A stretch of 64,000 nt of DNA from an uncultured Prevotella sp. GTDB taxonomy: Bacteria > Bacteroidota > Bacteroidia > Bacteroidales > Bacteroidaceae. The first letter of the stretch is position 1. Each line of letters begins with the position of its first letter. The stretch lies in assembly GCA_905234815.1 (NCBI GenBank), contig CAJOIX010000002.1, positions 43,074 to 107,073 of the forward strand, given 5' to 3'. The position numbers and the translations under genes are program-made. The notes beneath the pieces were generated by a model. The model was not told the DNA's origin and did no database searches. It worked only from the letters and a program-made list of their open reading frames with translations. Of the stretch, positions 26,670-27,530 are shown piece after piece.

Positions 26670-26700
26670 TTTGTATTTTAAAATTTCTTTTTATATTTGC
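26670..26700 (+). promoter_or_regulatory. Bacteroidetes-type promoter (TTTG ... TATATTTG) driving the ncRNA candidate
   Basis: TTTG at 26670-26673, 18-nt spacer, TATATTTG at 26692-26699. Confidence 0.7.
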
Positions 26701-26703
26701 ATG

Positions 26704-27048
26704 GTCTCATCGGATTCCCATCAAGGAAATTCTTTGAGATGAAAAGACTTTGATGGAATGAGAACCCCATTTATATGGGAAATTCTCGGAAGGCGTTTAC
26801 AGAACGTTATCATTCTGTGCATTCAAACTTCGCAACTTTGAAACCATATCGCAGATGATAGTGCAACGAAACGCTTACGTTGGTGAATTATATCCAATTC
26901 ACATGTTCCATGTTTTCACAATATGGAATTAGTGTTAGTATATAAATCACTAGGCGTGGGCTGGATGTGTTGCCTATTCTTGATATGGGGGCAATGCGAA
27001 GGCCTGAATGCAAGGATGGGTACGTCGAAACACCCATGCCTTTTTAAT
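26704..27048 (+). ncRNA. Candidate structured non-coding RNA (about 345 nt)
   Basis: No supported ORF; promoter upstream; many nested/serial complementary helices; terminator-like hairpin GGATGGGT...ACCCATGCC + TTTTT at 27014-27045. Confidence 0.6.
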
Positions 27049-27203
27049 TTCCTAAAATGTAAGCTTCAACCATGCTCCTAAGTTTGGGTGTTATTAGGAA
27101 TTACGCTGGAATGCGTATGTATAATCTGTTACAATAACACACAAACGAGGAAGTCGAAACGCGTTAAAGGGAGTAGGCATTTAATTATCTAACTTTATTC
27201 ATT

Positions 27204-27530
27204 ATGAAAAAAACTTTCAAATCACTGGCAGTTTTAGCTGTTGGTACCATGATGCTTAGTTCATGCGGAACCATGATTGGCACACAAACTGGTACTGGTG
27301 CTATTTTCACCAGCACTACTGATCCTGTTGCTGTAACAAGCAACAATGTAGGCAAAAAAGTAGGTACTGCTAAAGCCAGCAACATTCTTGGCCTCGCTGT
27401 TACCGGTGACGCAGGTGTTAATGCTGCAGCAAAAAATGGCGGCATCAAGAAAATTTCTCACGTTGATGTGAAGAAATCTTCGTTCTTGGGCATTTTCGGT
27501 TCTACTGAAACTACCGTTTACGGAGAGTAA
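27204..27530 (+). CDS. TRL-like family lipoprotein
   Basis: Lipobox LSSCGTMIGTQTGTGAIFTSTTDPVAVTSNNVGKKVGTAKASNILGLAVTGDAGVNAAAKNGGIKKISHVDVK, typical TRL-family pattern. Confidence 0.78.
   Translation: MKKTFKSLAVLAVGTMMLSSCGTMIGTQTGTGAIFTSTTDPVAVTSNNVGKKVGTAKASNILGLAVTGDAGVNAAAKNGGIKKISHVDVKKSSFLGIFGSTETTVYGE

Follow-up and report, generated by a model that had tools for sequence, protein, structure and literature searches.

An apparently undescribed, probable leader RNA family of Bacteroidales with two alternative predicted folds

Positions 26700–27048 of the window (the whole 64,000-nucleotide stretch of uncultured Prevotella sp. DNA analysed here) are confirmed as a single copy of a real, intricately folded RNA family, apparently an undescribed leader switch of ~250–370 nt with its own promoter and stop signal. 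The existence of this structured family is established as firmly as comparing sequences allows, with an alignment of 117 homologous sequences establishing two predicted folds that are mutually exclusive and are each conserved across the family. That the RNA acts in cis as a leader attenuating transcription is, in the absence of any transcription data, the reading we consider likely. Attenuator leaders are a known kind of element; this family and its architecture are absent from Rfam 15 and from the open papers searched.

Recognition of the family and its 5′ end

No match to the leader was obtained from Rfam 15 at the gathering score, either in the window or in 22 homologue loci, and a search of the window at E values up to 10 returned merely weak minus-strand or short chance matches. 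The same search recovered RF01693 at positions 1052–1228 of locus L067, providing a positive control, with the leader of that locus remaining unmatched. Rfam includes models for the T-box, group I and II introns, RNase P, tmRNA, and SRP RNA, none of which matched the leader, and a known Rfam RNA was rejected on the lack of any match in the window or the homologue loci. No prior description of the family was found in open papers; most subscription papers and preprints, and all supplements, lay outside the literature search, and an earlier description therefore cannot be excluded. The predicted folding energy of 26700–27048 is −123.9 kcal/mol, compared with −85.6 ± 6.0 kcal/mol for shuffled sequences (z = −6.4, none of 100 shuffles as good). 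Together with the strong covariation described below and the lack of a conserved frame, these results support the original prediction of a novel structured RNA that has a promoter and a terminator of its own.

The leader region of the window holds no supported open reading frame, as had been predicted, and a coding sequence was rejected because no reading frame is conserved among the homologues, with core lengths dividing 41/40/36 among the three residues modulo 3 and the longest open frame (57 codons) only slightly above that of shuffled sequences (49 codons). The same figures bear on a ribosome-dependent leader-peptide attenuator, which would share the architecture of terminator and antiterminator seen here, yet would need the conserved short frame that these sequences fail to provide; this explanation is already disfavoured and we hold it to be very improbable.

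All features of the window described here lie on its plus strand. The putative promoter is of the Bacteroidota type and spans 26670–26699, comprising TTTG at 26670–26673, an 18-nt spacer, and TATATTTG at 26692–26699, the start that was originally proposed from the sequence alone. The promoter is established as a family feature, with TAnnTTTG found upstream of the core in 111 of the 117 homologues (13 when shuffled) and a TTTG a further 18–20 nt upstream common among them. Transcription is inferred to start near 26705, at the head of a 5′ extension (26705–26789) in which GACnTnGATGGAATGAG and the following hairpin recur in homologues of the Prevotella type; the extension is absent from Bacteroides-type members. 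The pairing CCCAT/ATGGG, predicted as a hairpin at 26766–26779, is enclosed by a longer hairpin formed by GAGAA (26760–26764) and TTCTC (26783–26787), and it is the form of this hairpin that recurs in relatives.

Two alternative folds of the RNA

In the first fold, a rod predicted to represent the ON state, the 5′ and 3′ halves of the RNA are zipped together around a central loop–loop kiss. The closing helix P1 (26790–26795/27037–27042) is paired in 97.2% of alignment cells and shows GC to AU double changes, and is followed by H2 (26819–26824/27006–27011), in which all four Watson–Crick pair types occur and which gives the top covariation score (z = 41.7). The stem of hairpin A (26824–26827/26837–26840) carries the loop CUUCGCAAC, its pair 46–63 appearing as AU, UA, GC, and CG, whilst the stem of hairpin B (26989–26992/27002–27005) is 98.9% paired and presents the loop that kisses hairpin A. 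This kissing loop, K, joins CUUCGCA (26828–26834) to UGCGAAG (26995–27001) and is 99.9% paired; three of its pairs show double changes, and its letters are wholly exchanged in divergent members, for example to CUGGUAA/UUACCAG. Further along the rod, H3 (26845–26850/26982–26987) again shows all four Watson–Crick pair types, H5 (26857–26867/26969–26978) is 95.1% paired, and H4, formed by GCUUAC (26873–26878) and GUGGGC (26956–26961), is 99.0% paired.

In an unbiased covariation scan of the 117 homologues, the highest-ranking pairs belong to H2, H3, hairpin A, and the kissing loop, and all four Watson–Crick types occur at many of them. Over the whole rod 91.6% of cells are paired, with 683 double-change cells against 216 ± 12 in shuffled alignments and a covariation score of 0.281 against 0.142, meeting the expectation that covariation should be found in homologues; sliding the partners by 1–3 columns lowers the double-change count to about 50–110. 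Furthermore, 60 divergent copies were found later by covariance model and took no part in deriving the structure, and in 42 of these none of the 60 candidate partners suited the 3′ loop better than the 5′ region of the same copy.

The second, OFF fold confines pairing to within each half; beside the U-run, GGCGUGGG and CCCAYGYC form what is predicted to be an intrinsic terminator. This T-stem is formed in the window by GGCGUGGG (26953–26960) and CCCAUGCC (27033–27040), followed by the U-run at 27041–27045, and is 99.8% paired in the family. The B-stem (26972–26979/27014–27021) is paired in 100% of cells across the 117 sequences, and each of its eight pairs shows double changes in divergent copies. 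P0 (26792–26798/26869–26875), which offers an alternative partner to the 5′ strand of P1, is 98.0% paired with variation that is mostly wobble. Overall, the T-stem, B-stem, and hairpins A and B are 94.7% paired. The T-stem and B-stem also covary in the divergent copies, with 149 double-change cells against 28.6 ± 9.9; the alignment used for this count was fitted to the model, and the count therefore leans towards the structure. The two folds compete for the same letters, with GUGGG of H4 also serving the terminator stem and the 3′ strand of H5 also serving the B-stem. The strands that serve both folds, GGCGUGGGC and GUUGCUUAUCC, are nearly invariant, and their partners vary by wobble. By inspection of its letters, the copy in the window can pair every base of H2, K, H3, H4, the T-stem, and the B-stem. 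By predicted energy the rod is the more stable of the two, the median difference being 7.3 kcal/mol (−95.5 for the rod against −82.0 for the OFF fold in the window), from which it follows that the OFF fold, and with it termination, must be reached kinetically or with assistance.

A terminator had originally been placed at 27014–27045. The stem followed by five U residues ending at 27045 is retained; the local hairpin GGAUGGG/CCCAUGCC is replaced, the long-range T-stem being the conserved one. Among the helices first listed, three are conserved in the family: 26791–26798/26869–26876 corresponds to P0, 26822–26827/26837–26842 to hairpin A, and 26808–26813/26855–26860 to part of the weaker HA′. 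Those at 26705/26763, 26718/26756, 26883–26902, 26906–26928, 26930–26952, and 26970–26994 proved copy-specific or unconserved. That list also lacked the long-range elements P1, H2, the kissing loop, H3, H5, and H4, as well as the T-stem and the post-terminator pairing described below.

Downstream genes and spread of the copies

In the window, the leader is followed on its own strand first by a gene for a TRL-like lipoprotein (27204–27530; PF13146, Pfam E = 9.7e-26), the putative regulated gene. This gene starts ~158 nt past the U-run, compared with ~70 nt in typical copies. The orientation and spacing of downstream genes are established features of the family, with the next gene on the strand of the leader in 110 of 116 loci, upstream genes of mixed orientation, and the start codon usually 50–90 nt past the U-run (about 70). 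A second promoter between terminator and gene was not found above chance (6 found, 4.3 expected). Past the terminator lies a further paired element, D, in which AACACCC (27029–27035) pairs with GGGTGTT (27086–27092), the core pairs being 92% paired across the 117 sequences. The terminator contributes its UCCC segment to this pairing, and a copy's own partner beat permuted partners in all trials (0/300). A D motif of the GGGAG type is found ~34–35 nt upstream of the start codon in 97 of 108 loci, compared with 17 when shuffled. In the window, a second GGGAGTAGGCAT element at 27165–27180, ~35 nt before the TRL start codon, resembles the D of other copies; despite this resemblance, the terminator arm of this copy reads ACACCC.

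These observations bear on whether the unit could instead be an independent, trans-acting small RNA, the terminated 250–370 nt transcript acting elsewhere through base pairing or a protein, with the nearby gene incidental. The unit's own promoter and terminator, its many copies per genome, and its exposed complementary loops would all suit such a role. However, the shared strand and tight spacing at 110 of 116 loci, the absence of a promoter between terminator and gene, the conservation in the downstream 5′ UTR of D, which pairs back to the leader, and loop letters that covary inside each copy and are not common to copies all speak against it, and we judge it improbable. Because gene orientation and spacing are conserved and a second promoter is lacking, a leader of the TRL-like gene, one of the two options first put forward, is favoured over an independent RNA; the terminated RNA might nonetheless have a role of its own.

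The proteins encoded downstream, mostly exported ones, are diverse, with 67 Pfam families among 112 proteins and no metabolic theme among the genes. They include six proteins with BspA-type repeats, three SusC/RagA proteins, and 14 of 112 that are Cys-Xaa-Xaa-Xaa repeat radical-SAM target proteins (TIGR04117; e.g. at L009, L040, L054, and L087). Signal-like N-termini are enriched (40 of 55, against 221 of 467) by a crude hydrophobicity rule. Small helix-turn-helix-like proteins of 70–82 aa follow four copies (L044, L072, L110, and L125), and at L011 a 353-aa transposase-like frame, IS110-like by appearance, starts on the minus strand ~13 nt after the U-run.

By blastn, copies were found in 18 of 100 relatives, all of the same genus, with up to six per genome, and the genome from which the window derives holds at least three others. 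A pattern drawn from the conserved 3′ part matched at least 120 stretches in a species-genome collection, nearly all labelled Bacteroidales and including Bacteroides, Phocaeicola, Parabacteroides, Muribaculaceae, and Prevotella; the labels of two matches, Lachnospiraceae and Clostridium, probably reflect mislabelled or contaminated MAGs. Within the genus, the covariance model R1 detected the leader in 69 of 100 genomes, at up to 11 copies per genome; across the order, R1 detected it in 58 of 296 genomes and the broader R2 in 53 of 199 (up to 18 copies), R2 also giving one weak case outside the order. The leader is thus carried by 20–27% of sampled Bacteroidales and almost never found outside the order. 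One weak match outside the order (L200) lies inside an open reading frame and is taken as chance; a further weak match (L239) scores 36.9 bits. Eight genomes reached from seed loci carry 2–12 copies each, with five copies in Phocaeicola massiliensis. Many copies lie near contig ends in assemblies G075, G427, G462, and G532, which suggests that they flank repeated sequence.

Phage or plasmid cargo was rejected, there being no match in phages or plasmids by distant blastn, nor in 2.9 million viral contigs for the queries used. A related possibility is a mobile or gene-converted promoter cassette resembling a MITE, of which the folded RNA would mainly be an element feature and control of the host gene a secondary one. 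The similar copy pairs L020/L061 (92%) and L011/L138 (91.7%) match from promoter to terminator only and are flanked by unrelated sequence, a pattern suggestive of a cassette that spreads or undergoes gene conversion; partial copies, with promoter and 5′ hairpins only, exist near full copies (L009 885–1006; L090, L099, L127, L086, and L138), and the great diversity of downstream genes points the same way. Against this stand the missing phage, plasmid, and viral matches, the orientation and spacing to genes, which insertion would not fix, and the deep compensatory change, which reflects long selection on the RNA; additionally, the unit showed no obvious terminal inverted repeats or transposase, although these were not searched for systematically. 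We therefore regard the cassette explanation as decidedly unlikely and retain the transcription-attenuating leader.

Proposed mechanism and comparison with known systems

An attenuator or riboswitch is expected to lie in the 5′ UTR on the strand of its gene and to hold mutually exclusive terminator and antiterminator structures that are both conserved; the family meets both expectations, with co-transcription inferred. In the proposed scheme, polymerase would start at the leader promoter and produce ~340 nt of RNA ahead of the TRL-like gene. Were the 3′ half to form the GGCGUGGG/CCCAYGYC stem beside the U-run, transcription would terminate; were the halves to zip into the rod of P1, H2, K, H3, H5, and H4, the GUGGG strand and, after closure of P1, the other terminator strand would be sequestered, and polymerase should therefore read on. 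Once polymerase has read through, D would engage the terminator's UCCC segment and might hold the RNA in its open state; since D is synthesised only after read-through, it is unable to decide termination. Three parts of this scheme are inferences: termination at the stem in living cells, control of the gene by the fold adopted, and the setting of that fold by a signal, whose identity and direction are unknown. A more far-reaching suggestion, made tentatively and without ligand data, is that the family constitutes a riboswitch class spanning the order and responding to a signalling compound yet to be identified, coordinating the exported-protein repertoire of Bacteroidales through strand exchange between kissing halves and a lock formed past the terminator, close to the start codon.

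With about a quarter of sampled Bacteroidales species carrying several copies per genome, the family could represent a major layer of control over the proteins that dominant gut and rumen bacteria export, among them proteins with BspA-type repeats, SusC/RagA proteins, and Cys-rich radical-SAM target peptides. Coordination of surface genes is directly testable, because type strains such as Phocaeicola massiliensis carry copies.

Among known RNAs, the leader shares with Bacteroidales-1, or 6S-Bacteroidales RNA (RF01693), its status as a structured RNA of the same order, but Rfam places RF01693 apart from the leader within L067. The GEMM and ydaO aptamers are much smaller than the leader family, which has no Rfam match to either. 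Like the leader family, the c-di-GMP (GEMM) and ydaO riboswitches precede many unrelated genes and not one homologous gene set (PMC2864571). The leader also resembles the adenine, lysine, and cobalamin riboswitches in being a 5′ leader with a structured domain, a loop–loop kiss, and a closing helix that is exclusive with an intrinsic terminator. The comparison concerns transcription-terminating riboswitches in which P1 acts as the antiterminator. In contrast to them, the leader family has no Rfam match and no known ligand, its 5′ and 3′ halves exchange all their partners, an extra paired element lies past the terminator, and the genes that it precedes encode diverse exported proteins.
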